From Nanobdellota archaeon (lineage in GTDB: Archaea; Nanobdellota; Nanobdellia; Woesearchaeales; UBA12501): 13,728 bases of DNA. Numbering within the stretch: position 1 is the stretch's first letter; the number at the start of each line of letters is the position of its first letter. Of the stretch, positions 1,197 to 13,658 are shown piece by piece. The translations under genes were made by a program, and so were the position numbers. The stretch is from assembly GCA_018812465.1 (NCBI GenBank), contig JAHJCS010000229.1:1-13728 (forward strand), given 5' to 3'. The notes under the pieces were generated by a model, which did not search any database, was not told the DNA's origin, and was given only the letters and a program-made list of their open reading frames with translations.

Positions 1197-2636
1197 ATGG
1201 AGATCAATGAGATATCAGGATATCCTCCAGAAGCATGGCTGGTTGAGCATTTAGATGCATGCCCTTTCTTTATAGAAGCAGCTGCTTATGGATTCACCAC
1301 TCCGTTTGATAAATTTCAAGACAATTATGGTTTCACAATCTCATTTTTTAGGGACAACCAGATTGACTGGGCAACACTGATTGAAGATCAAAACAGGATG
1401 GGGGAAAAGATATCCAGCATTGGACTGAAAGATCCTGATTTCTTCCCTACTTTCTTCAAGGAGTGGGATAAAGGGCTTAAAGAATTCTATGAATATGTAT
1501 TGCAGCTGCGGAAAAAGGGCCTAAGCAATCTGGATGACCAGGAATTCATAGATTTATTCAGGCAGTATTATGATAATGCAAAGAAAGCACATTTTCCTGG
1601 CTGGATAGATGCATTCATATTCTTCGCTGACAAACACTTCTCTGATCTGATAAAGGATTTCTGCAATAAGAAGAATCTGGATAATCCTCAAAGGATGTCT
1701 GCTGCGCTGTCTGCTCCTGTTGAACCATCATTCATATTTGAGAGTGAAGAAGAGCTTTACAGAATATCTATGATTAAGGATGAGGAAGAAAGAGATTCTG
1801 CTATCAAAAGATATCTTGACAGATTCTTCTGGCTAAAAGGAAGCTATGCAGGCTCTTCTGATTACACCAAGAATGATGTTATTGAAAGGATAAAAAGCAT
1901 GAAAAAGCCGGAACCTGCGCATATCACCCATAGAAAAGAAAAAGACATCCTCATGCAGACTCATGGATTCACTGAAGATATAAAGTCAATGGTGAAGCTG
2001 ATAGAGACAATATCAAAATGGCAGGATAACAGGAAGATATTCACATTGACAAGGGTTTACCTAGAGGAAGAATTCCTAAAAGAAGCTGGAAATAAAACAG
2101 GAATAAGCAGGGATCTGCTCAGATACTCAAGCATAGATGATTTCTTAAGGCTTCTTGAGGGAAGGGTTGACAAAAAAGAGTTTGAACGCATGCTGATTGA
2201 GATAAATAGAGGGTCATTATGGATATATTCTCATGGAAAGGCCCAAAAGATGGTAACAGGAAAAGAGGCAGAGGATATCTTTGAAAAGATTCAGGGAAAG
2301 CAGGAGAATGATGTTGAAGAATTAGAGGGCTTTGCAGCTTCATTCGGCAAGGCAAAAGGAAAGGCAGCCATAATAAAGAAGATTGATGATAACCAGAAAG
2401 TACAGCAAGGAGATATCATTGTTACTTCCATGACCCGGCCGGAACACACCCCTGCAATGATGAAAGCAGCAGCAATAGTCACAGATGATGGAGGGATAAC
2501 CTGTCATGCAGCTATTGTCAGCCGTGAGCTTGGGATACCCTGTATTATAGGCACAAAAAAGGCCACAAAGGCGTTCAAGGATGGGGATATGATTGAGGTT
2601 GATGCTGACAAAGGCATTGTGAGGAGGATAGGATGA
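1197..2636 (+). CDS. P1: helical domain + phosphohistidine swivelling domain protein (PEP-utilizing enzyme mobile domain, no ATP-grasp)
   Basis: 479 residues; first gene of the array. C-terminal ~100 residues (about 377-479) are a PEP synthase/PPDK-type swivelling domain: TSMTRPEHTPAM (410-421), then DGGITCHAAIVSREL with the phospho-accepting His at 437 (equivalent to His421 of E. coli PpsA), and GIPCIIGTK. The preceding ~375 residues are mostly helical and carry landmarks shared with the six paralogues: LSAPVEPSF (171-179), FFWLKGSY (210-217), WQDNRK (275-280), VTGKEA (353-358). No ATP-grasp or PEP/pyruvate barrel motifs are present, so it cannot phosphorylate itself as PEP synthase does; a partner kinase is inferred. 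Variants: DDGG where most paralogues have DEGG. The start is supported by GAGGGG at 1185-1190. Stop overlaps the P2 start (ATGA). Acceptor unknown; domain call strong, role inferred. Confidence 0.9.
   Translation: MEINEISGYPPEAWLVEHLDACPFFIEAAAYGFTTPFDKFQDNYGFTISFFRDNQIDWATLIEDQNRMGEKISSIGLKDPDFFPTFFKEWDKGLKEFYEYVLQLRKKGLSNLDDQEFIDLFRQYYDNAKKAHFPGWIDAFIFFADKHFSDLIKDFCNKKNLDNPQRMSAALSAPVEPSFIFESEEELYRISMIKDEEERDSAIKRYLDRFFWLKGSYAGSSDYTKNDVIERIKSMKKPEPAHITHRKEKDILMQTHGFTEDIKSMVKLIETISKWQDNRKIFTLTRVYLEEEFLKEAGNKTGISRDLLRYSSIDDFLRLLEGRVDKKEFERMLIEINRGSLWIYSHGKAQKMVTGKEAEDIFEKIQGKQENDVEELEGFAASFGKAKGKAAIIKKIDDNQKVQQGDIIVTSMTRPEHTPAMMKAAAIVTDDGGITCHAAIVSRELGIPCIIGTKKATKAFKDGDMIEVDADKGIVRRIG
2621..2627 (+). 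promoter_or_regulatory. Ribosome binding site of P2, encoded inside the P1 C-terminus
   Basis: GAGGAGG, 5 nt before the P2 ATG at 2633. It is formed by the codons GTG AGG AGG for the Val-Arg-Arg tail of P1, so the conserved protein tail doubles as the initiation signal of the overlapping next gene. Confidence 0.65.
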
Positions 2637-3424
2637 AGAAGCAAGAGGCCATCAGGATCCTGAAGACAGAGAAGCAGTATATCTGCTCTGCTCCTGGAAC
2701 ATATCATCTGGCCTATGCTCCGATGATAGGCTTCACGAGGATGGACAGGCACTTCAAAGAGTTTTATAAGTATGAGATTGTGCTCTACAAAGACAGGCAT
2801 ATTTACCAGTGCGAGTCATGGGACCAGGCTTTCAGGAACATGAAACAGCTTTATGATGATCCAAAGAACACCAAGAAGATAATTGAAGAGTGGAGAAAGC
2901 AGAAGAAGGGCTTCTATGAGTACTGCAAAAGCCTTTCTGATCCTGCAAAGCTAAGTGACAAGGATATTTTTGGTGAATATTGGAAGTTCATGGACCAGTT
3001 CTCTGATGTTTGGGCTGCGCCTCTGGTCACAGATGGAAGCGGGGTTTATACAGAATCAGAGCTATGGGAGGACTTCCTTAAAGAAGTCAAGTCAGAAGAG
3101 GCAAGGAAGATATTTCTCGAGATGACACAAAGCCAGGAACTGTCTTTCCTGGCGCAGAATAAGCTTGGCCTGCTGAAGCTGACGCTGAAGTGCAGGAGCA
3201 AAGACAAGGATCTCAAAGAAAAGCTGAAAGAGCACCAGCAAAGTTTTTTCTATGTTGAAAACACCTATGAGAAGGTAAGATATATCACTGAAGATAATCT
3301 TCTTGAAAGGATAAAGAAAGACAAGAGAAGCGACAAGGAGATAAAGGAAGAGGTAAGGAAGCTTGAGAATCCTGAGCTGAAAGCAAAGCAGGAAAAGCTG
3401 TTCAAAGAGATTAAGATGAGCTGA
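2633..3424 (+). CDS. P2 N-terminal fragment (helical domain only, 263 aa)
   Basis: The part of P2 translated if TGA at 3422-3424 terminates. It contains the N-terminal and central helical segments up to LFKEIKMS and has no swivel domain, hence no phosphohistidine. It starts at the ATG overlapping the P1 stop, with a strong ribosome binding site at 2621-2627. Whether it is stable or functional alone is unknown. Confidence 0.6.
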   Translation: MKKQEAIRILKTEKQYICSAPGTYHLAYAPMIGFTRMDRHFKEFYKYEIVLYKDRHIYQCESWDQAFRNMKQLYDDPKNTKKIIEEWRKQKKGFYEYCKSLSDPAKLSDKDIFGEYWKFMDQFSDVWAAPLVTDGSGVYTESELWEDFLKEVKSEEARKIFLEMTQSQELSFLAQNKLGLLKLTLKCRSKDKDLKEKLKEHQQSFFYVENTYEKVRYITEDNLLERIKKDKRSDKEIKEEVRKLENPELKAKQEKLFKEIKMS

Positions 3425-3544
3425 GAGCTTAAGGAAAAACTGCTTCTTACCCAGCTGCTCACTGTATGGAGCGACGAGAGGAAAGAGATTGACCTCAGGG
3501 GAAAACAGTACCAGAATGAGTTCCTCAAGGAGTTTGGGAAGAGG

Positions 3545-4078
3545 ATGGAATTCCCTGTTGAGGATATATATTATATCCAGCCAGATGAGATAAAAGAGTT
3601 CTTCATCACAGGAAAGAAGCCGTCAAAAGATCAGGTCAAGAGCAGGATAAAGCTATGTGTCCATGTAACAACAGTACCATTAACAGAAGAGTTCTTTGAG
3701 GAAGAGGATGCTGTAGAGATACTCAAGGCCTATGAGTCAATAACCCATGAGAAAGAGCTCAAAGGCACAGTGGCCTCATTCGGAAAGGAACATATCATAA
3801 GAGGAGAGGCTAACATTGTTCTTAACCCTGCCAAGACAGACTTCAGGAAAGGTCAGATAATGATCACGACAATGACCAGGCCTGAGTTTGTTCCTTTGAT
3901 GCATCTTGCAAAGGCTATAGTTACAGATGAAGGCGGAGTGACAACGCACGCAGGCATTGTTTCAAGAGAGCTGGAGATTGCGTGCATTGTGGGAACAAGG
4001 TCTGCAACAAAGGTCCTGAAGACAGGTGATATGATTGAGATGGACACAAGGACTGGGGAAGTGAGGAAAATAAAATGA
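3545..4078 (+). CDS. P2 C-terminal fragment (swivelling domain, 177 aa from first internal ATG)
   Basis: Same frame as the upstream fragment. The ATG at 3545 is codon 305 of the intact gene, an internal Met (KRMEF), and the purine run GGGAAGAGG abuts it directly without normal spacing, so independent initiation is doubtful. The product would hold the end of the helical region and the whole swivel domain; its His135 corresponds to His439 of intact P2. Most likely the severed 3' half of one gene. Confidence 0.5.
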   Translation: MEFPVEDIYYIQPDEIKEFFITGKKPSKDQVKSRIKLCVHVTTVPLTEEFFEEEDAVEILKAYESITHEKELKGTVASFGKEHIIRGEANIVLNPAKTDFRKGQIMITTMTRPEFVPLMHLAKAIVTDEGGVTTHAGIVSRELEIACIVGTRSATKVLKTGDMIEMDTRTGEVRKIK

Positions 4079-5496
4079 ATCTGAAACAGGCTCTCAAGGA
4101 GAAATGGTATAGCCAGGGATTCAATGCAACGCCTTTCCTGCTTGGAAGCGCAGCATTCTGCTGCGACATCATGGAGAGGGACCTGGGAATCTATTACACT
4201 CATTATCTCTACATCTTCAAAGAAGATTTCGGTGATATGAGCTATTATGAAAAGGATCTTAATAGTATGGGCCTTATAATAGAGAAGAAGCTTGCAGAGG
4301 ATCCTGATTATTTCAGAAAGGCAAAGAATCTCTATGACCTGCAGATGAAAGATTCTGCAAAGTTCTATGATAAGATAAAGAAGACAGACTTAAAGAAGGT
4401 GTCAGATGGGGAGCTTATGGCAATGCTTAAGAAAGCGTCTGAGAGAATCTCCTATTCTGTGGCTGTTGCGCACATAATAGAACCATATGTTCTGACAACT
4501 GATTTCAAGATAAAGAAGGAGCTTGAGAAGTTCATAAAAAACAAGACAGATCTCAACAGGACATTCACTCTTCTCATGGCACCTGTAAAGGAATCATTCG
4601 CAAACAGGTATGAGAATGCGCTGAGAAACATAAAGAACAAGCAGGACATCATGAAAGTGATAGAAGAATTCTTCTGGATAAGGGATACATATGCAGGAAG
4701 GCATATCCTGACCGAGAAGGATATCAAAGAAGAGATGGCATCAATAAAGGCAAAGCAGCCTGTTGACCTTAACAAGCTCGCAGAAGAAAAGAAGAATGCT
4801 ATAAGCAGGCTGAATCTTCCTGAAGCGCTGGTATTCAAGATAGAAACAACAGAATTCCTTACATTCTGGCAGGATGAGAGGAAAGTCCAGATACTGATGT
4901 CATTGGATTATGCTGACAGGATAATGGAAGAGGTCTCCAGAAGGGTTGGTCTTGACATAAGATATGCCAGGCAGGCGCTTCCAGAAGAGATAGACCTTGA
5001 TAGGATGAAATCAAAGGAATTCCAGGATACACTCAGGAAGAGAAGAGAGGGCTTCATCTATGTGTACAACTATAAGTACAATCCAAAAACTGATCTCCCT
5101 GACAGATATACTGGCAAGGATTATGATGATTTTGTGAAAGCAAGGGAGAAAGAGAAGAACATTGAGGTAAAGGAACTCACTGGAATGACAGCATCCACAG
5201 GCACTGCAATTGGTCCTGCTAGGATATGCACAACAATAGAATCCCTGAAGAAAGTAAAAGAAGGGGATGTTCTAGTTGCTTCTATGACCAGGCCAGAATA
5301 TGTTCCTGCAATGAGGAAAGCAGCTGCAATAATAACAGATGAAGGCGGAATAACCTGCCATGCTGCGATTGTGTCCAGAGAATTGGGGATACCCTGTATC
5401 ATAGGCACAAAGAACGCAACCAAAGTCCTCAAGGACGAAGACCTTCTTGAGATTAAAGGCAATCACGGGCTTGTGATAATCCTGGAGAGAAAATGA
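4075..5496 (+). CDS. P3: helical domain + phosphohistidine swivelling domain protein
   Basis: 473 residues. Landmarks: LMAPVKESF (167-175), FFWIRDTY (199-206), WQDERK (265-270), YTGKDY (345-350), then the swivel domain from about 366 with ASMTRPEYVPAMRKA and DEGGITCHAAIVSRELGIP, phosphohistidine at 429. This is the most canonical swivel loop of the set and virtually matches the PEP synthase consensus. The tail departs from the family: after LLEIKGNHG it ends VIILERK, where most paralogues have a VRK/VRR tail. The N-terminus (WYSQGFNATPFLLGSAAFCC) shares little with P1 or P2 except with P7 (EWYHQRFDGSPYFM), suggesting P3 and P7 form a subgroup; both also end with a NHG turn. Start overlaps the P2 stop by ATGA, with GTGAGG at 4061-4066 as ribosome binding site. 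Confidence 0.9.
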   Translation: MNLKQALKEKWYSQGFNATPFLLGSAAFCCDIMERDLGIYYTHYLYIFKEDFGDMSYYEKDLNSMGLIIEKKLAEDPDYFRKAKNLYDLQMKDSAKFYDKIKKTDLKKVSDGELMAMLKKASERISYSVAVAHIIEPYVLTTDFKIKKELEKFIKNKTDLNRTFTLLMAPVKESFANRYENALRNIKNKQDIMKVIEEFFWIRDTYAGRHILTEKDIKEEMASIKAKQPVDLNKLAEEKKNAISRLNLPEALVFKIETTEFLTFWQDERKVQILMSLDYADRIMEEVSRRVGLDIRYARQALPEEIDLDRMKSKEFQDTLRKRREGFIYVYNYKYNPKTDLPDRYTGKDYDDFVKAREKEKNIEVKELTGMTASTGTAIGPARICTTIESLKKVKEGDVLVASMTRPEYVPAMRKAAAIITDEGGITCHAAIVSRELGIPCIIGTKNATKVLKDEDLLEIKGNHGLVIILERK

Positions 5497-6962
5497 AAAC
5501 AGAAGATGTTCTAAAGGACATTGAATCAAACACCTGGTGGACAGAGGAATTTCCTGGAACACTTGGACTGTGCATGGAGTTCATGGATGGTTTCACAGGA
5601 ATAAGGAACCATATAAGCCCGCCTTTGCATTCTATGAGTGTTCTCCTGCTTGAGAAAGGCAGCATAAGAGAGGAGACAAAAGAGGATGAGAAGAGCCAGA
5701 TATTCATTCATATAATTGAAGAGATGAAAAAAGACCCTGATTTTGTTGACACGCTTATTGAGAAGCAGAAGCTGGTAGAGGATAATCTTATCAAAATCTC
5801 AGAAAAGGTAGGGAAGGACCTAAAATCAAAGAGCAATGAACAGCTGTGGAGTCTGTTCAAAGAATTCTATGACAATTATATCATTTTCTGTGAGGTTGCA
5901 GTGATTCCAGAAGGAGGAGACCCTTATGCAGAGCATTACCTGATTCCAAGGCTGAAAGATATTGAGAAAATACCCGTTAATGAAATAAATGATGTCATGG
6001 TCACTTTCTCTACACCTGTGATGTACAGCTTTATGGATAATGAACATATTGAATTCCTCGAGCTCTGTGTCGCTTACCTCAAAAAAGATGATTTTGAAAG
6101 GAGACTCAAGGAACATTCAGGAAAATATCACTGGCTCAGGAATAATTACTCTCAGGCATATTATCTTGATGAGAAATATTTCCTTGAAAGGGTAAAAGAA
6201 GAGGTCAAAGGCAGGAAATCAGAGGATATCAAGAAAGAGATTGAAGATTTGAAGAAAGAAAAAGAGAAACTGAGGAAAAAGAAAGAGGAATACCAAAAGA
6301 AATACAGACTCAGTGATGAGACAAAACTCATTTTAACAGTCTATGAGAAGATGGGTGTGTGGATTGATGAGAGGAAGAAAAGGATGGTCAATTCTGTGCA
6401 TTATCATGCAAAAGTACTGAAAGAGATTGCAGGAAGATTCAGCCTTGAATGGAATGATATAAACTATTACACAATCCCAGAGATAAAAGAACTTTTGATT
6501 CAGGAAAAACAGATTGACAGGAAAGAATTGAAGAGTAGATTTGAACTCAGCAGTTATATCACAACCTCCGATGAAAAATGGCTGGTTACAGGAGAGGATG
6601 CAAGGAAGATAAGAGATGCTTTTGATGCAAAGATCTCAAAAGAGGTCATAAAAGGTATTGTTGCCAACAAGGCAGAAGGAAAGTTCACAGGAGAGGTCTG
6701 CGTGATGATGGACCCTCACAAAGAGGATCTTCCTCAAGGAAAGATTCTTGTGACAAGCATGACCCGACCTGACTTTGTGCATCTTATCAAGAAAGCAAGT
6801 GCTATTGTGACTGATGAAGGAGGCATAACATGCCATGCTGCTGTGGTAAGCAGGGAATTCGGTATTCCATGCATAATAGGGACAAAGAACGCGACAAGGA
6901 TGCTCAAGACAGGAGATTGGGTGGAGATAGATACTGAGAAGGGGGTTGTGAGGAGATTATGA
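5493..6962 (+). CDS. P4: helical domain + phosphohistidine swivelling domain protein with coiled-coil segment
   Basis: 489 residues. Landmarks: FSTPVMYSF (172-180), YHWLRNNY (212-219), WIDERK (290-295), VTGEDA (365-370), and the swivel domain from about 386 with TSMTRPDFVHLIKKA and DEGGITCHAAVVSREFGIP, phosphohistidine at 448. Between YHWLRNNY and WIDERK it carries a very charged Lys/Glu-rich heptad-like stretch (about 232-270), longer than in the paralogues and likely a coiled coil, which could mediate dimerisation or partner docking. The tail is VVRRL, whose codons GTG AGG AGA make the ribosome binding site of P5. Start overlaps the P3 stop (ATGA), with GGAGAG at 5484-5489. No kinase domain. 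Confidence 0.9.
   Translation: MKTEDVLKDIESNTWWTEEFPGTLGLCMEFMDGFTGIRNHISPPLHSMSVLLLEKGSIREETKEDEKSQIFIHIIEEMKKDPDFVDTLIEKQKLVEDNLIKISEKVGKDLKSKSNEQLWSLFKEFYDNYIIFCEVAVIPEGGDPYAEHYLIPRLKDIEKIPVNEINDVMVTFSTPVMYSFMDNEHIEFLELCVAYLKKDDFERRLKEHSGKYHWLRNNYSQAYYLDEKYFLERVKEEVKGRKSEDIKKEIEDLKKEKEKLRKKKEEYQKKYRLSDETKLILTVYEKMGVWIDERKKRMVNSVHYHAKVLKEIAGRFSLEWNDINYYTIPEIKELLIQEKQIDRKELKSRFELSSYITTSDEKWLVTGEDARKIRDAFDAKISKEVIKGIVANKAEGKFTGEVCVMMDPHKEDLPQGKILVTSMTRPDFVHLIKKASAIVTDEGGITCHAAVVSREFGIPCIIGTKNATRMLKTGDWVEIDTEKGVVRRL
6948..6955 (+). promoter_or_regulatory. Ribosome binding site of P5, encoded inside the P4 C-terminus
   Basis: GTGAGGAG, 3 nt before the P5 ATG at 6959. As at the P1/P2 junction, it is made by the Val-Arg-Arg codons of the upstream protein tail. 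Confidence 0.6.
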
Positions 6963-8344
6963 TAAAGAGAATAGAATGGAAAAGGGTTTGGGCAAGGAAA
7001 TACGCACCTTATATTGCATCAACATTCATGAGAGTCTTCATGACAAAACCTGGCTTTGACATGTGCAAAAACAAGCTTTTCCTGCCAGAAGGAGGAATCA
7101 ATGCAATCTATTTTGCAGAGGATGAGTTCAGCCAGCTGATAAAGAATGCTACTGAGCTTCTCATGAAGGATGATATGAGACAGTTCGCAGAAGAGTATGA
7201 GAATACGTTCAGAAAGTTCCTGTCATGGGCTGAGAATTTCAGCAAAACAGACTTCAGCAGCCTTTCTGACAAGGAGATCATTGCCAAGCTTGAGGAATGC
7301 AGCAGGAATATAACTGAGTCAGCAGAAGACCAGTTCTTCTCATTCGTTGTTCTTGAAGGTCCAGGAAGGGAGCTTGAGAAAATGCTCTCTTTATATAGCA
7401 ATAAGGAAAAGATAAAACAGTGGATAGCCACACCGTACAAGGAGACTAAGCTGACAAAGATAAGGCTTGAGCTGCTCAAAATGATGAAAGAAAGAAAGAC
7501 ATCAGAAAAAGAGCTGAAGGATTATGCAGAGAGGAACAGGTGGATAACAGTATATGAGTTTGTAGACAAGCCGTTCACAATAGATGATGCCAGAGAGATA
7601 ATGGCCCATATAAAAGACCCTGAGAAAGAGATTGAGAATATAAAAGCCATCAACAAGGATAATCTGAACAATTACAATGAGTTCATCAAGAGCATAGATG
7701 ATGAGAAGCTGAAGAAGACTGCAAAGATCATGCACTATTTCACATATCTTAAGGAAATGAGAGATGATTATAGGAGGCATGCATATTATCTTCTTGCGCC
7801 TTTCATAAATGAACTAGCAAAGAGAGCAGGTATGACGCTGATTGAAGTCAACCAGCTTATCCATAAAGAGATTGTAGATGCAATAAAGACCCATGATCCA
7901 GGATATAAGAAGAAAGCTCAGGCACGCCAGAAGAAATACTCCCTGCTGTTTAAAGACGGAGAACTTAGCATATTCGATTATGATATCTCTCCTGATTATA
8001 TAAAAGAGCAGGAGTCAGGAAAAGAATCAGAGATAAAAGGTGTTGTGGCAAACAAAGGCAAGGTCACTGGGAAAGTTAATATTATATTCCACAGGAATGA
8101 TTTCAGCAAGTTCAGGCAGGGAGATGTGCTTGTAACTCCCATGACCCACCCGGAGTTCATGCCTGTGATAAAAAAAGCCATTGCAATAATCACAGATGAA
8201 GGAGGCATAACCTGCCATGCTGCGATAACAGCAAGGGAATTTGGGGTACCATGCATTATAGGGACTAAGATAGCTACAAAGGCCTTGAAAGATGGCGACA
8301 GAGTGGAAGTTGATGCAGACAGCGGAATTGTAAGAAAACTTTAA
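6959..8344 (+). CDS. P5: divergent helical domain + phosphohistidine swivelling domain protein
   Basis: 461 residues, the shortest and most divergent of the seven. The swivel domain (about 359-461) is intact: TPMTHPEFMPVIKKA, DEGGITCHAAITAREFGVP, phosphohistidine at 420, GTKIATKALKDGD. The helical region has lost several family landmarks: the Trp-Asp-Glu-Arg-Lys motif is replaced by LKEMRDDYR (264-272), the FFWLxNNY element by NRWITVYEF (193-201), AP...SF by ATPYKET (157-163), and no TGKEA is visible. The N-terminus is unusually basic and aromatic (IEWKRVWARKYAPY). Because the lost motifs cluster in the helical half while the His loop is well kept, a changed acceptor or partner with retained phosphate carriage is the simplest reading. 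Last gene of the ATGA-overlapped block; its tail codons are GTA AGA AAA, which form no ribosome binding site. Confidence 0.88.
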   Translation: MIKRIEWKRVWARKYAPYIASTFMRVFMTKPGFDMCKNKLFLPEGGINAIYFAEDEFSQLIKNATELLMKDDMRQFAEEYENTFRKFLSWAENFSKTDFSSLSDKEIIAKLEECSRNITESAEDQFFSFVVLEGPGRELEKMLSLYSNKEKIKQWIATPYKETKLTKIRLELLKMMKERKTSEKELKDYAERNRWITVYEFVDKPFTIDDAREIMAHIKDPEKEIENIKAINKDNLNNYNEFIKSIDDEKLKKTAKIMHYFTYLKEMRDDYRRHAYYLLAPFINELAKRAGMTLIEVNQLIHKEIVDAIKTHDPGYKKKAQARQKKYSLLFKDGELSIFDYDISPDYIKEQESGKESEIKGVVANKGKVTGKVNIIFHRNDFSKFRQGDVLVTPMTHPEFMPVIKKAIAIITDEGGITCHAAITAREFGVPCIIGTKIATKALKDGDRVEVDADSGIVRKL

Positions 8345-8407
8345 ATTAAACACCAGATTCATAAATCAAAGTGATATATAGATTATAATAAGACGCGGGG
8401 TGCAATC
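8345..8407 (+). promoter_or_regulatory. Possible internal promoter and RBS before the pta-like gene
   Basis: This 63-nt gap is the only sizeable one inside the array. It has A+T-rich TATA-like candidates at 8341-8350 (TTAAATTAAA, starting within the P5 stop codon) and 8374-8380 (ATATATA), and a GGGGTG ribosome binding site at 8397-8402, 5 nt before ATG 8408. The 8374-8380 element would start transcription around 8405 and exclude the ribosome binding site, so the upstream candidate, giving a leader of some 35 nt, fits better. Which one is used cannot be settled from sequence. Confidence 0.4.
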
Positions 8408-9400
8408 ATGAAAAATCTGATTAGGATAATGAAACAGACAGCCAAGGACAACAGGAAGAAGATAGTCATAGGCGAAGGCTGGGATGAGCGATGCCTGAAG
8501 GCAGCAGATTATGTCCTTAGAGAGGGCTATGCTGACCTTGTCCTGCTAGGTGATGAGAAACAGATAATGAAAGAAGCAGAGGAGTTCAAGGTAGACATCA
8601 CAGCAGCAGAGATAATAAACCCAAAGACTTCTGAAATGAGAGAGAAACTCGCAAAAGATCTTTATGAACTCAGGAAAGCAAAAGGTATGACAGAAGAAAA
8701 GGCATTAAAGCTTCTTGATGATGTGAATTACTTTGGCTGCATGCTTGTGCATACAGGATATGTGGATGGCATGGCAGGCAGCGCAATCTGCTCAACTGCT
8801 GAACTGATGAGACCTGCTCTCCAGATAATCAAGACAAAACCTGATGCAAAGCTTGTGTCAGAAGTCCTTATCTCAGAGGACAGGAAAAACAATAGGATTC
8901 TCATGTTCTCTGACTGTAGCCTGAATATTGATCCTGATGCAGAGCAGCTTGCACATATTGCTGTAAATGCAGCTGACCTTGCAAAATCATTCAACTTTGA
9001 GCCAAAAGTTGCTCTGCTCTCTTTCTCAACAAAAGGGTCTGGAGGAGATGCTGACATAATAAAGAAATCAAGGGAAGCAGCAAAGCTTGCCCAGGAGATG
9101 AGGCCAAGCTATGTGATTGATGCTGAATACCAGGGAGATGCTGCAACAAATCCTCATGCAGCAAAGAGGAAATGTAAGGATGCAAAGATAATGGGGGATG
9201 CGAATGTTCTTGTTTTCCCAAACCTCACTGCAGGCAATATAACACTCCACTTATTGTCACAACTTTCTGATATGAAGATTGACCTGTCAGCTCTTGTGGG
9301 CATAAGGAAACCAGTCATGATTCTTGGAAGAAGCACCCCATTAGAGACAGTCATAAATCTCATAATAATGGCTGCTTTTGAGGCAAACACCAGCAAGTAA
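8408..9400 (+). CDS. pta: Phosphate acetyltransferase (Pta)-like protein with altered catalytic loop
   Basis: 330 residues, the normal length of a single-domain Pta, which interconverts acetyl-CoA + Pi and acetyl phosphate + CoA. Seen: KIVIGEGWDERCLKAA (18-33), VDGMAGSAICSTAELMRPAL (119-138, including the conserved Arg135), FSDCSLNIDPDAEQLA (167-182), VALLSFST (201-208), VIDAEYQGDAA (236-246), VLVFPNLTAGNI (267-278). The C-terminal active-site loop, KPVNDLSRGCSVEDIVN in typical Pta, reads KPVMILGRSTPLETVIN: the Arg is kept (308), the preceding Ser is Gly307, and the catalytic Asp position is Thr314. The GPILQGL element before it is also missing. This C-terminus resembles the non-catalytic Pta-like domain of MaeB malic enzymes, which bind acetyl-CoA as an effector. 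It could be an acyl-CoA sensor, an enzyme with another acyl substrate, or a weak Pta. It sits inside the carrier array, 9 nt before P6. Confidence 0.85.
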   Translation: MKNLIRIMKQTAKDNRKKIVIGEGWDERCLKAADYVLREGYADLVLLGDEKQIMKEAEEFKVDITAAEIINPKTSEMREKLAKDLYELRKAKGMTEEKALKLLDDVNYFGCMLVHTGYVDGMAGSAICSTAELMRPALQIIKTKPDAKLVSEVLISEDRKNNRILMFSDCSLNIDPDAEQLAHIAVNAADLAKSFNFEPKVALLSFSTKGSGGDADIIKKSREAAKLAQEMRPSYVIDAEYQGDAATNPHAAKRKCKDAKIMGDANVLVFPNLTAGNITLHLLSQLSDMKIDLSALVGIRKPVMILGRSTPLETVINLIIMAAFEANTSK

Positions 9401-9409
9401 AGAGGGCGC

Positions 9410-10834
9410 ATGATTGATCCTAAAAAAGAGATTTTCAAGTGGGGGCCTATTGAGGGAAGGCCTATCTATATTGACATCTTTGTTGAAGCATTTGTCAAAT
9501 ATCCTGATTTCATTGACGGCTCATGGCCTGACAGCATTGGTTATTTCAAGGATGACTTTGTCACATTCATCTTTGATGACCATGACTTAAGGCAGAGAGG
9601 AGAGCATCTCTTCAAAGAGCATGTCATGAATGACTCAAAGTTGAAGAAAGCGTATGATGAATGGATAGAAGTGACAAAGAGGATAAAGCAGACAGAAGAA
9701 AGGGTCAATAAAGGCCTTTCTGGCATGAGTGACCATGGACTTTATGAACTTCTTGTTAAGTGGAATAAAATACACCTTGACTTCTGGCTTACTGGATTCC
9801 TTCCTGAGCTAAGCAACTGGGGAGGCGAGCAGATACTCAAGAAAAAGATAATCAAATCCTACAAAAAAGGATTCATAGAGATCTTTGAGAAGCTCAGCGC
9901 ACCTGAGAATATATCATTCTTTGAGAAAGAGCAGCTTGAGTTCATGAAAATCAAGCTGATGGCTCCTTTGGACAGGGAAAGGCAGATTGCAGTCCACCAG
10001 ATGAACTATTACTGGCTCAGGAACAATTATGGATCAACAAAAATGCTTGAAGAGCAATGGTTCAGAAAAGAGCTTGAGAAAATAAGCAGGGAAGAGGCAG
10101 AGAACAGGATCAAAGAGATAAATCATTATCCAGAGAAAGTTAGACAGGAGAAAGATGAGGCCATACAGAAGTACAGCATCCCAAAAGAGATTGTCAGGAT
10201 AGCTGACAAGCTCGCTTACTGTGTATTGTGGCAGGATTACAGGAAGAGCTTCATTTTCATAGCTAACCATATTGTGACACAGTTTGTGAGGGAGATAAGC
10301 AGGAGGAAACAGGTTGATTTCAAGGAATTATGCTGTTACACCACAGAAGAGCTTGAACATCTCATGGAGAAAGGAACAAAAGCCCAGTCCAGAGAGAGGC
10401 TTGAGGGTTTCCTGCAGTATTATAATGAAGGAGATGGATTGTCATATTTCACAGGCAAAGAAGCCCAGAACATGGCAAGGCCTTTTCTGAAGGTTGATTT
10501 TGACCCAAACATGAATGAGTTCAAGGGCATTGTTGTCAGCATGGGAGAGAAAGTGAGAGGAAGAGCAATAGTCATGAACAAGCCAGAACCAGAAAGGATG
10601 CAGCAGGGAGATATCCTTATTGCGCCAATGACATCACCTGATTATGTGGTTGCGATGAGAAAAGCAAGCGCCATAATAACAGATGCAGGAGGCATGACCT
10701 GCCATGCAGCGATTGTGTCAAGAGAGCTTGATGTGCCGTGTATTGTGAACACAAAGATAGCGACAAAGCTTCTGAAGGACGGAGACATGATAGAGGTTGA
10801 TACAAAGAAAGGTGTTGTGAGGAAGATAAAATAA
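9410..10834 (+). CDS. P6: helical domain + phosphohistidine swivelling domain protein
   Basis: 474 residues. Landmarks: LSAPENISFF (162-171), YYWLRNNY (200-207), WQDYRK (274-279), FTGKEA (347-352), and the swivel domain from about 371 with APMTSPDYVVAMRKA and DAGGMTCHAAIVSRELDVP, phosphohistidine at 432. Differences from the consensus: MTSPD for MTRPE, DAGGM for DEGGI, and CIVNTK for CIIGTK, so the surface around the His loop is modified although the His remains. Starts 9 nt after the Pta-like stop; the GAGGG at 9402-9406 is only 3 nt from the ATG, tight spacing that may lower initiation or rely on coupling. The N-terminus has no similarity I can see to the other paralogues. Confidence 0.9.
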   Translation: MIDPKKEIFKWGPIEGRPIYIDIFVEAFVKYPDFIDGSWPDSIGYFKDDFVTFIFDDHDLRQRGEHLFKEHVMNDSKLKKAYDEWIEVTKRIKQTEERVNKGLSGMSDHGLYELLVKWNKIHLDFWLTGFLPELSNWGGEQILKKKIIKSYKKGFIEIFEKLSAPENISFFEKEQLEFMKIKLMAPLDRERQIAVHQMNYYWLRNNYGSTKMLEEQWFRKELEKISREEAENRIKEINHYPEKVRQEKDEAIQKYSIPKEIVRIADKLAYCVLWQDYRKSFIFIANHIVTQFVREISRRKQVDFKELCCYTTEELEHLMEKGTKAQSRERLEGFLQYYNEGDGLSYFTGKEAQNMARPFLKVDFDPNMNEFKGIVVSMGEKVRGRAIVMNKPEPERMQQGDILIAPMTSPDYVVAMRKASAIITDAGGMTCHAAIVSRELDVPCIVNTKIATKLLKDGDMIEVDTKKGVVRKIK

Positions 10835-10848
10835 ATGAGGTATATGAT

Positions 10849-12414
10849 ATGTCAATGAAATTCATCCCAGGCCTGGCAAAACAGAAAGTGAACAGCTGGA
10901 TAAACAAAGAATGGTATCATCAGAGGTTTGATGGAAGCCCTTATTTCATGCATTTCATTGCAGAGGGAGAGATTAGCCTGCACAGGGAGAGGAAGAAAGG
11001 GGGCTATTTTACTGTGCATTACTGCTTCTATGATGAAGGAAAAGCAGACTGGTACATCCTCATGGATGATATAAAGCAGGTTTACACCTCTGTGATCAAA
11101 GAGAGCAGAAAGAATCCTGATATAAGCTCTGATCTTATCAAAGCATGGCAGAAAGACCAGGAGCTTTTCTACAAGAAATGTATTGAAGTTGGAGACATTG
11201 ACTTGACAAAGCTTAATGACCAAGAGCTTATTGAACTGCATGATGAGTTTGCCCAGATAGCTCTCAACAAAAACAGCTCATCATCATTGATTGACGGCTT
11301 TGCTCTTGGAACAGATGAGATGATAGCAGAAGAGATAAAGAAAGCCTATGAGAAATCAGATTTAAGCAAGGATAAGAGATTTGCTGAGGTATTCTCAATA
11401 CTGACTGCTCCTGTACACAGGTCTTTTATCAATGAGGCTGAGGTGAGCCTTTTCAGGGTTGCTCAGGCAATAGAGAAAGAGAAATTAAAGGATGTCTTCA
11501 GGCACAAAGATCCTAAATATATACTCAATGAGCTAAAAGGAAAGAGAGCATTGCAGCTTCTTCAGGAACACCAACAGAACTTCTTCTGGATAAAGAACAA
11601 TTATGTCAGCACATTCATAATCACATTAGAAGAGCTGGTTATAGAGATAAAGAAGCTCTTTGACCTGGGCATTGACCTGCAGAAAGATGCAGAGAAGATA
11701 GAGCATACTCCTGTAATCAACAAGCAGGATAAAGAAGACATGATGAAGAGCATAAAGCTAGGAAAAGAGCTCAAGATATTGATAAAGATCTCAGAGGATT
11801 TCACATACTGGCAGGATGAAAGGAAAAAGTCAACTATGTGGAATATGCATTATTTCAGCAGTATACTCAAGGAATTGAGCAGGAGAGTGGGGCTTGATAT
11901 TGAAGATATGAAATATATGACCTGCAGAGAGGTCAGTATAATATTTGAGCATGCTCCAACAGCAGCAGAGCTTCAGGCCAGAAGAAAGAATGGTGTCTAT
12001 TACTGGGATGAAGAAGGCATTGATGCCCTGCACTCCAAAGAAGCTGATGAGGTCAGGCAGAAAGTGCTTGGAAGCCAGGACATGAGTGATGTTGATGATT
12101 TCAGAGGTTTGACAGCATGCACAGGAAAGGCTGTAGGCCATGTGAAAATACTCAAGAGCGCAACAGAGATAAACAAAATAGAACCAGGAGACATCCTTGT
12201 CGCAGTCATGACCAGGCCTGACTATGTTCCTGCAATGAAGAAAGCAGCAGCAATAGTGACTGATGAAGGAGGCATAACAAGCCATGCTGCGATTGTGAGC
12301 AGAGAGCTGGGCATACCCTGCATAATAGGCACCAAGATAGCAACAAAAGTTTTAAAGGAAGGCCAGTTAGTAGAGGTCAATGCCAATCATGGATGGGTTA
12401 AAATCATAAGATAG
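10849..12414 (+). CDS. P7: helical domain + phosphohistidine swivelling domain protein (longest paralogue)
   Basis: 521 residues. Landmarks: LTAPVHRSF (185-193), FFWIKNNY (245-252), WQDERK (321-326), SKEADEV (396-402) in place of TGKEA, and the swivel domain from about 416 with AVMTRPDYVPAMKKA and DEGGITSHAAIVSRELGIP, phosphohistidine at 479. The residue before the His is Ser instead of the usual Cys. N-terminal EWYHQRFDGSPYFM and the C-terminal NANHGWVKIIR resemble P3, marking a P3/P7 subgroup. The start ATG at 10849 is supported by GAGGT at 10837-10841 with 7 nt spacing; a second in-frame ATG lies two codons later. It follows P6 by 14 nt and is the last carrier gene. Confidence 0.9.
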   Translation: MSMKFIPGLAKQKVNSWINKEWYHQRFDGSPYFMHFIAEGEISLHRERKKGGYFTVHYCFYDEGKADWYILMDDIKQVYTSVIKESRKNPDISSDLIKAWQKDQELFYKKCIEVGDIDLTKLNDQELIELHDEFAQIALNKNSSSSLIDGFALGTDEMIAEEIKKAYEKSDLSKDKRFAEVFSILTAPVHRSFINEAEVSLFRVAQAIEKEKLKDVFRHKDPKYILNELKGKRALQLLQEHQQNFFWIKNNYVSTFIITLEELVIEIKKLFDLGIDLQKDAEKIEHTPVINKQDKEDMMKSIKLGKELKILIKISEDFTYWQDERKKSTMWNMHYFSSILKELSRRVGLDIEDMKYMTCREVSIIFEHAPTAAELQARRKNGVYYWDEEGIDALHSKEADEVRQKVLGSQDMSDVDDFRGLTACTGKAVGHVKILKSATEINKIEPGDILVAVMTRPDYVPAMKKAAAIVTDEGGITSHAAIVSRELGIPCIIGTKIATKVLKEGQLVEVNANHGWVKIIR

Positions 12415-12440: not shown

Positions 12441-12518
12441 AACCAATGGTCGTGGGGCTGAGCGAAGCGAACGCCCCACTTGGTTCGCGTGTTAACGGAG
12501 CGAGCCGTTATGCGTGAA
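12441..12518 (+). other. GC-rich structured element: two hairpins with GAGCGA loops and possible pseudoknot
   Basis: Within the 131-nt gap after P7 this segment is far richer in G+C than its surroundings. Hairpin 1: GTGGGGC (12452-12458) pairs with GCCCCAC (12473-12479) around a 14-nt loop containing GAGCGAAGCGAAC; AACCAA (12441-12446) can extend it with TTGGTT (12480-12485) past a 5-nt bulge. Hairpin 2: TTCGCGTG (12484-12491) plus TAACGG (12493-12498) pair with CCGTTA (12505-12510) plus TGCGTGAA (12511-12518), one bulged T, loop AGCGAG. The loop segment GCGAAC (12467-12472) is also complementary to GTTCGC (12483-12488), allowing a pseudoknot or an alternative fold. No T-run follows, so a simple terminator is unlikely. 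It may be a leader RNA, a dispersed palindromic repeat, or a small RNA; I do not recognise it. Confidence 0.6.
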
Positions 12519-12534
12519 GATAATAAAGAATTAA

Positions 12535-12539
12535 GGGTG
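12535..12539 (+). promoter_or_regulatory. Ribosome binding site fixing the start of the hexapeptide-repeat protein
   Basis: GGGTG, 6 nt before the ATG at 12546 and of the same type as the GGGGTG ahead of the Pta-like gene. It selects ATG 12546 over the in-frame TTG at 12480, whose first codons would lie inside the structured element. Confidence 0.6.
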
Positions 12540-12545
12540 TTAAAT

Positions 12546-13658
12546 ATGAACCAGAAAGAAAGGATAAAGAAAGCAATTGAAGTCATTCAGAGCGGAAAGA
12601 AGAGAAAAGCCATCATAGATCTTGATGACACTGATTTTAATATCAAACCATTGCCGAAGTTGTGGTGGAACAAGCTTGTGTTCTTCTGCCAGAAATGGAT
12701 TGTGCCATCGCACATAAAGAACTGGCTTCTCAGAACAACAGGAATGAATGTAGGACATGATGCATGCATCCCTCATTACATTGACTTTGACCCTTATTTT
12801 CCAGAGCTGATATACCTAGGATCTGGTGCATTGATTGGAGGAGACTCAAACTTATGGACACACAAGGTTGAGGGAAAGAAGCTGATTATTGGAAAGGTTG
12901 AGCTTAAGGACAAGACAATGATATCTGGCTTTGTGACATTATGGCCAGGAGCATTAGTGAACAAGAACTCTATTGTCAGCCTCAAGTCAAAGCTTGATCA
13001 TGAGATTCCAGAAGGAGAGATATGGGAAGGAGAACCTGCAAAATGCGTATTCAAACTTTCTCCTGAACAGATTGACAAGTATTTCAAGAAAGTTGATATG
13101 GACCCAAAAGAGTATTACAGAGAATTCAGGAAGAAAGTCAATGCATTCCAGAAAGATCCTAACCACAGCTATTTCAAAGTCCAGTATGGAGGGAAAAGGG
13201 CAGGAGCAGGAAATGACTGGTGGAGAGCAAGGAATGTGTTCAGAATATTCTATAATGGACCGATTGTAGAGCTTATAAGACTCCTTCCTCACAACTGGTT
13301 CAAGACTCTGCTCTGCAGGATGATCGGAGTAAAGCTTGGAAAGAATGTGTACATAGGCAAAGGAACTGTGTTTGATCATATATACTGCGACACTGTGACT
13401 CTTGAGGATAATGTGAGGATTGATGACCACTGCTATTTTGATGGACATGAATACACAATAGCCCAGACAATATTTGGCAGGGTCCTTGTGAAGAAAGGAG
13501 CTCATCTGAAACACCACACATTTGTTAGGACAGGATGCACAATAAGTGAGAACACAGTAATAGAACCCTGGAGCATGTGCGCAAAAGAGATTCCCCCTAA
13601 TGAAGTCTGGGGAGGAATGCCTGCAAGATTCATAAAAAAGAAGGGTAATAAGAAGTAA
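12546..13658 (+). CDS. Tandem hexapeptide-repeat (left-handed beta-helix) acyltransferase-like protein
   Basis: 370 residues from ATG 12546. Two similar halves, each with a helical lead-in and a hexapeptide-type coil. Half 1 (about 50-168): HIKNWLLRTTGMNVG, then IYLGSGALIGGD, a His at 106, and the exit signature EIPEGEIWEGEPAKCVF. Half 2 (about 245-364): WFKTLLCRMIGVKLGKNVYIG, TLEDNVRIDDH, FDGHEYT with His301, and EIPPNEVWGGMPARFI. The IP..E.W.G.PA exit and the GH.Y-type His loop are usual for WcaF-like acetyltransferases and for the tandem acyltransferase-like end of Pls/PosA peptide synthetases. A charged linker (about 170-230) separates the halves. It probably transfers an acetyl or other acyl group from an acyl-CoA; the substrate is unknown. 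Trimeric assembly is usual for the family. Association with the array is by proximity and shared direction only; a 131-nt gap separates it from P7. Confidence 0.85.
   Translation: MNQKERIKKAIEVIQSGKKRKAIIDLDDTDFNIKPLPKLWWNKLVFFCQKWIVPSHIKNWLLRTTGMNVGHDACIPHYIDFDPYFPELIYLGSGALIGGDSNLWTHKVEGKKLIIGKVELKDKTMISGFVTLWPGALVNKNSIVSLKSKLDHEIPEGEIWEGEPAKCVFKLSPEQIDKYFKKVDMDPKEYYREFRKKVNAFQKDPNHSYFKVQYGGKRAGAGNDWWRARNVFRIFYNGPIVELIRLLPHNWFKTLLCRMIGVKLGKNVYIGKGTVFDHIYCDTVTLEDNVRIDDHCYFDGHEYTIAQTIFGRVLVKKGAHLKHHTFVRTGCTISENTVIEPWSMCAKEIPPNEVWGGMPARFIKKKGNKK

Follow-up and report, generated by a model that had tools for sequence, protein, structure and literature searches.

HpeHI, CreHI and PpsAB are split dikinases known from experiment, with one ATP-grasp protein per partner (PMC12167813). 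They are reported to phosphorylate a histidine and then to hand the phosphate on to a small molecule in the binding site. HpeHI activity is lost when the swivel His is mutated, and HpeH alone shuttled phosphate between substrates (same source). The window analyzed here is a 13,728 nt stretch from a Nanobdellota archaeon (contig JAHJCS010000229.1) and contains seven genes, P1–P7, whose products end in a phosphohistidine swivel domain. As in the split dikinases, as far as that source describes them, the ATP-grasp domain is on a separate protein and the partner has a substrate-binding domain and a C-terminal swivel His. The difference is that one ATP-grasp protein here stands against up to about 45 divergent partners, shorter than HpeH (71 kDa; PMC12167813), in arrays or fused chains with recurrent phosphotransacylase (Pta) and acyltransferase genes. 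P1–P7 are probably the acceptor and swivel halves of split dikinases that are charged in trans by one shared ATP-grasp protein.

Other relatives share parts of this design. Phosphoenolpyruvate (PEP) synthase and pyruvate phosphate dikinase (PPDK) also have ATP-grasp and swivel domains, but P1–P7 have no PEP/pyruvate TIM barrel. Enzyme I of the phosphotransferase system (PTS) has a homologous swivel domain. In the PTS a single donor supplies several branches; the donor here, however, would be the ATP-grasp protein and not PEP. VadK, also related to PPDK, is truncated and lacks the pyruvate/PEP domain, and its role is reported as regulatory; it differs in being one chain of ATP-binding and His domains only, with no acceptor domain described in the accessible part of the report (PMC13400623). 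Rifampin phosphotransferase (RPH; 5fbt, 5hv1; PMC4844700) has an acceptor and swivel fold that is matched across the whole chain by models of P3 and P5. RPH is, however, a single chain with its own ATP-grasp domain, the identity is 14%, and rifampin binding is not claimed here.

This order differs from the known split dikinases in its one-to-many charger ratio, its arrays and fused chains, and the Pta that accompanies them. One-to-one split dikinase pairs were also met in this analysis, e.g., in Geoglobus (L127) and Enteractinococcus (L098). Archaeal swivel arrays or multi-swivel fusions were not found in the titles and abstracts of the open-access literature searched, which is weak evidence of absence, nor did look-ups of terms in the texts of PMC11237513, PMC8204110 and PMC8421398 reveal any.

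Domain content and predicted fold of P1–P7

The window is contig C138 of genome G000, which is 1.35 Mb, 79% complete and in 280 contigs (G, C and L labels denote the genomes, contigs and DNA stretches of this analysis). A Pfam scan of the window frames (E <= 0.01) shows a C-terminal PF00391 domain in seven frames at positions 1197–12414, with E values of 6.9e-22 to 2.6e-27. Apart from weak matches below the cut-off, this is the sole Pfam domain in P1–P7. Neither PF01326 (ATP-grasp) nor PF02896 (TIM barrel) is found in any of the seven at this threshold, and the layouts of single-chain RPH and of PEP synthase/PPDK are thus absent. The initial annotation had placed a swivel domain with its His at the C-terminus of all seven proteins, without ATP-grasp or TIM barrel domains; the scan and the exact His positions (Table 1) agree with this. 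It had also described seven translationally coupled genes in a row. There are 4-nt overlaps at the four junctions among P1–P5, but a Pta gene splits P5 from P6 and the successive later gaps are +63, +9, +14 and +65. Seven is the number at this locus, but the set is wider: a profile search gives 13 PF00391 matches in G000, six of them on other contigs, including one contig-end fragment. The PRK08296 NCBIfam models, which we take to be tied to PpsA, give best scores of 107 bits (P1) and 102 bits (P3), below the cut-off of 578.

Nearly the full length of the P3 and P5 models can be matched to two domains of RPH, the rifampin-binding domain and the swivel. An RPH-like substrate domain (predicted fold, P3 and P5) and a C-terminal swivel His (all seven) are both characteristic of two-component dikinases. 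The helical-then-His order resembling the C-terminal part of RPH, proposed from the sequence at the outset, holds for these two modelled members. The possibility that P3 or P5 conceals a nucleotide-binding fold in its N-terminal region is rejected, as the models match the RPH substrate domain instead. Part of the Arg/Glu/Lys phosphate site of RPH has counterparts in the swivel proteins, and most members retain the phosphate-contact residues.

The two halves of these proteins differ in conservation. Among the six intact window proteins, identity is 50.0–63.5% in the swivel and 11.9–23.2% in the acceptor domain. The swivel His is retained in 119 of 120 cases. For P3, P4, P6 and P7, the acceptor domain has its best matches in other genera, with scores well above those of any paralogue found in the same genome. 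That of P1 has one close orthologue within the genus, and that of P5 has distant relatives only. A scan of genome contigs with P3 gave no relative. As judged by sequence, the acceptor domains are old, separately kept lineages, which recent amplification does not fit, and they would therefore suit distinct acceptors.

The ATP-grasp protein and its fusions to swivel units

The only PF01326 match in G000 is a 312-aa PPDK_N protein on contig C129, whose chain extends no further than the ATP-grasp domain. No full-length PF01326 protein, i.e., of PEP-synthase length, was found by profile search in this genome (79% complete); "PEP synthase" and "full-length" are judged by the length of an ORF (open reading frame) that contains both PF01326 and PF00391, without PF02896 as a criterion. 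There are thus 13 swivel matches to one ATP-grasp match, not a one-to-one pairing. C129 also has an end swivel fragment, a weak alpha/beta-hydrolase match, two unassigned genes and a second hexapeptide acyltransferase (L010 4578–5768), which is 92% identical to the window copy. This contig may be a continuation or a duplicate of the window locus.

G001 (98% complete) has a 319-aa stand-alone ATP-grasp protein on contig C24, 81% identical to the G000 protein. As in two-component dikinases, the ATP-grasp domain is on its own polypeptide in both genomes. The G001 gene is located inside an array and is flanked by two swivel genes in one direction and by seven in the other; all have the same orientation, and a few non-swivel genes are interspersed. 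This genome has 18 swivel and two ATP-grasp matches, one of each in an 817-aa ORF of PEP-synthase length on a separate contig. Five of the 10 genomes in the window's family have at least three stand-alone swivel matches; a separate ATP-grasp protein is present in three of these (G000, G001, G006) and was not found in G008 and G009.

ATP-grasp domains are fused to swivel units in single ORFs in seven genomes (A, ATP-grasp; S, swivel unit; the digit gives the number of units). The arrangement is A-S4 in G014 (2013 aa) and G049 (2217 aa), A-S3 in G040 (1637 aa), A-S2 in G116 (1250 aa) and S2-A in G057 (1389 aa). G083 has an S-A chain of 793 aa, its only PF01326 match, which adjoins a four-swivel ORF of 1705 aa. 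In G050 an ORF of 4201 aa, read as two stretches (L142, L143), has eight swivels and a C-terminal ATP-grasp domain. The TIM barrel is absent by Pfam from the G014 chain, the sole fusion chain so checked. Fusions of swivels only are also present, with five in a 2815-aa ORF (G013) and three in a 1414-aa ORF (G117). Nothing else points as strongly to several swivels being served by one ATP-grasp domain as such fusions do. PPDK_N ORFs of about 1200 aa are not fusions by default: the one tested (L111 429–4289) is a PEP synthase whose ATP-grasp domain is split by an intein with splicing and LAGLIDADG domains, and others of the survey may be intein-bearing in the same way.

In the proposed mechanism, the stand-alone ATP-grasp protein would bind ATP and phosphorylate each swivel His in turn, a step that we infer from gene content, the fusions and family chemistry. 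The charged swivel would turn to the RPH-like helical domain at the N-terminus of its own chain, where it would pass the phosphate to a bound small molecule, as the fold predicted for P3 and P5 suggests. With a constant donor side and diverged acceptor domains, one charging enzyme could provide many substrate specificities. Gene content, the fusions and the P3/P5 fold support the acceptor-specific carriers with a trans-acting ATP-grasp kinase put forward in the initial annotation.

Distribution in the order and competing explanations

The survey covers 118 genomes of this order, 10 of which have three or four PF00391 matches and are left unclassified. Five or more matches are present in at least 30, and at least 27 of these 30 swivel-rich genomes have a separate or swivel-fused ATP-grasp domain. 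Among the 78 genomes with two or fewer matches, at least four (G019, G053, G081 and G123, among the matches listed) have a separate ATP-grasp protein, and a swivel gene directly adjoins it in G053 and G081. A swivel gene is also found in 16 of the 28 stretches with a stand-alone ATP-grasp gene. G095 has 46 PF00391 matches (at least 44 in the order-wide survey), one of them within an 831-aa ORF of PEP-synthase length. For a small, reduced genome of 1.5 Mb, as many as 46 swivel domains are an unexpected investment in one enzyme family. A tentative proposal is that this DPANN order could have a hub-and-spoke phosphotransfer network, with one ATP-grasp charger and up to about 45 diverse swivel enzymes, joined into chains in some species. 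Multi-swivel chains, such as the eight units with one ATP-grasp domain in G050, may process a single metabolite or several in the manner of an assembly line. If true, the combination of a common charger and exchangeable acceptor domains would be a new, cheap route to many kinases, and many unassigned proteins of uncultured archaea would become a testable small-molecule kinase family.

Several observations weigh against a shared ATP-grasp charger. In G000 the kinase gene and the window array are on separate contigs (C129 and C138). Two genomes of the window's genus, G008 (91% complete) and G009 (76%), yield only a PF01326 match of PEP-synthase length. Among the 27 genomes above, the ATP-grasp gene is at a contig edge in G035 and is interrupted in G018. 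The three swivel-rich genomes not among the 27 are G021, G122 and G054. Relaxing the threshold to E 10 gives no PF01326 match in G021 (9 swivels, 90% complete), and the sole match in G122 (9 swivels, 76% complete) is in a 912-aa ORF. Twelve of the 28 stretches have no swivel nearby, the stand-alone match of G054 is isolated in a GC-rich stretch with no adjoining swivel, and the single PF00391 match of G019 and of G123 is that of the PEP synthase. The acceptor side has weak points as well. The D-x-R-K motif is partly missing in P5 and others, and a profile of the acceptor domain only does not recover RPH (its best match among PDB sequences, E 0.014, is an unrelated protein). The homology to RPH therefore rests on structure and a swivel-anchored alignment.

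Charging by a full-length PEP synthase, or from PEP, would account for the arrays of G008, G009 and G122. It is very unlikely, as no full-length protein was found in G000 at its 79% completeness, fusions and synteny link the separate ATP-grasp domain to swivel units, and the only PF01326 match of G083 is itself such a fusion. That P1–P7 are decaying or recently amplified copies with no common function is scarcely credible: six are intact, orthologous lineages persist across genera and the His is nearly invariant. The point in its favor is P2, which has an in-frame TGA. Recoding is rejected, since TGA also terminates P1–P4 and is an ordinary stop codon in G000. The P2 orthologue in G009 (L057 2442–3907) is frameshifted in about the same region, and the two parts of P2 are conserved, with 50% and 68% identity to the matching parts of that orthologue. 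Because the orthologue is also broken and the parts are conserved, P2 is decaying in both species, or something not understood takes place.

A regulatory phosphorelay is a more substantial alternative, although an unlikely one. The ATP-grasp protein would charge the swivels and the phosphate would be passed to proteins, as in the PTS or with VadK, with TrmB regulators and phosphatases as partners. The mycobacterial VadK is reported to autophosphorylate and, through interaction with the enzymes of a pathway, to fine-tune that pathway (PMC13400623). Genes similar to histidine phosphatases, low-molecular-weight (LMW) phosphatases and HAD phosphatases adjoin swivel genes, and TrmB genes are enriched: in a rough test on the six genomes of the 10-member family that have stand-alone swivels, with rounded genome sizes, contig ends trimmed on the left only, and full-length PEP synthase and sub-cut-off TrmB matches left out, nine of 56 stand-alone swivel genes have TrmB within 3 kb compared to 1.4 expected (nine compared to 2.0 within 5 kb). 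However, the N-terminal domain has a predicted small-molecule-binding fold with phosphate contacts kept in most members, the window's contig has no TrmB match, and TrmB may just control metabolic genes. Transfer to small molecules from a shared ATP-grasp charger remains the preferred reading.

Gene map and neighboring genes

Table 1. Genes of the window, with positions, swivel histidines and Pfam matches
Gene	Position	Strand	Domains and features	Match or basis
P1	1197..2636	+	acceptor (helical) domain, C-terminal swivel; His437	PF00391 E 3.6e-26
P2	2633..4078	+	P1-like architecture; His439; in-frame TGA at codon 264 (3422-3424)	3' part PF00391 E 6.9e-22
P3	4075..5496	+	His429	structure modelled
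P4	5493..6962	+	His448	PF00391 E 3.8e-26
P5	6959..8344	+	His420; degenerate WQDxRK-type motif (LKEMRDD)	structure modelled
Pta paralogue, array-type	8408..9400	+	second Pta on C152	PF01515 E 2.6e-94
P6	9410..10834	+	His432	PF00391 E 8.4e-27
P7	10849..12414	+	His479	PF00391 E 2.6e-27
Hexapeptide-repeat acyltransferase	12480..13658	+	start codon uncertain	PF00132 E 1.2e-07; array neighbor in 9 genomes

In the stretches read, all genes up to 6 kb away from a swivel or ATP-grasp gene were clustered. The recurrent neighbors are TrmB regulators (13 genomes), Pta (12), the hexapeptide acyltransferase, an alpha/beta-hydrolase-like family with a weak Pfam match (7) and HAD phosphatases (7). Glycosyltransferase, PIG-L and carbamoyltransferase genes also adjoin swivel genes, and acceptors may therefore differ between loci. 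A tree of 32 Pta proteins places the 14 array-linked Ptas without exception in one 17-member clade (100/100), where array-linked is a label by location and the surroundings of a minority of the other Ptas were checked. The other three members are from swivel-rich genomes (G056, G085, G119). The remaining 15 are outside the clade, including the second Pta of G000; some of these are also from swivel-rich genomes (G025, G083, G095, G115 and G073, which has both kinds). The window Pta scores 286.2 bits with the equivalog TIGR00651, below the cut-off of 311.2, and any acyl specificity assigned to it is therefore putative.

The retention of a phosphotransacylase next to phosphotransferases suggests that the products are acyl phosphates. 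Given that the hexapeptide acyltransferase and a distinct Pta clade recur in arrays, at least one acceptor might be a carboxylate, converted to an acyl phosphate and then to acyl-CoA; this is a guess, and a doubtful one. Swivel proteins do not, as a general rule, replace a missing acetate kinase, as G000 and G008 have this enzyme; none is shown in G001, G006 and G009.

Histidine-phosphatase superfamily genes are near swivel genes in three genomes (L014 847–1440, below Pfam's cut-off; L062 4940–5689; L176 12665–13309). In G021, which lacks an ATP-grasp match, an LMW phosphotyrosine-phosphatase-family gene (L222 15390–16064) directly adjoins a swivel gene. At the edge of C7 (end of L011), a swivel-type protein is present with its N-terminal part, and it appears to run on into C101 (start of L014). 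Stretch L121, on a contig filed under Candidatus Kerfeldbacteria of the candidate phyla radiation (CPR), has a fragment of an ATP-grasp gene together with three swivel ORFs, of which one is truncated at the end of the contig; this would represent horizontal transfer or mis-binning. A shorter class of swivel proteins, about 350–360 aa, is found at L013 8523–9572, L059 6151–8300, L052 4999–6072 and L067 349–1422, and a TrmB gene adjoins the short protein in L013 and L059.

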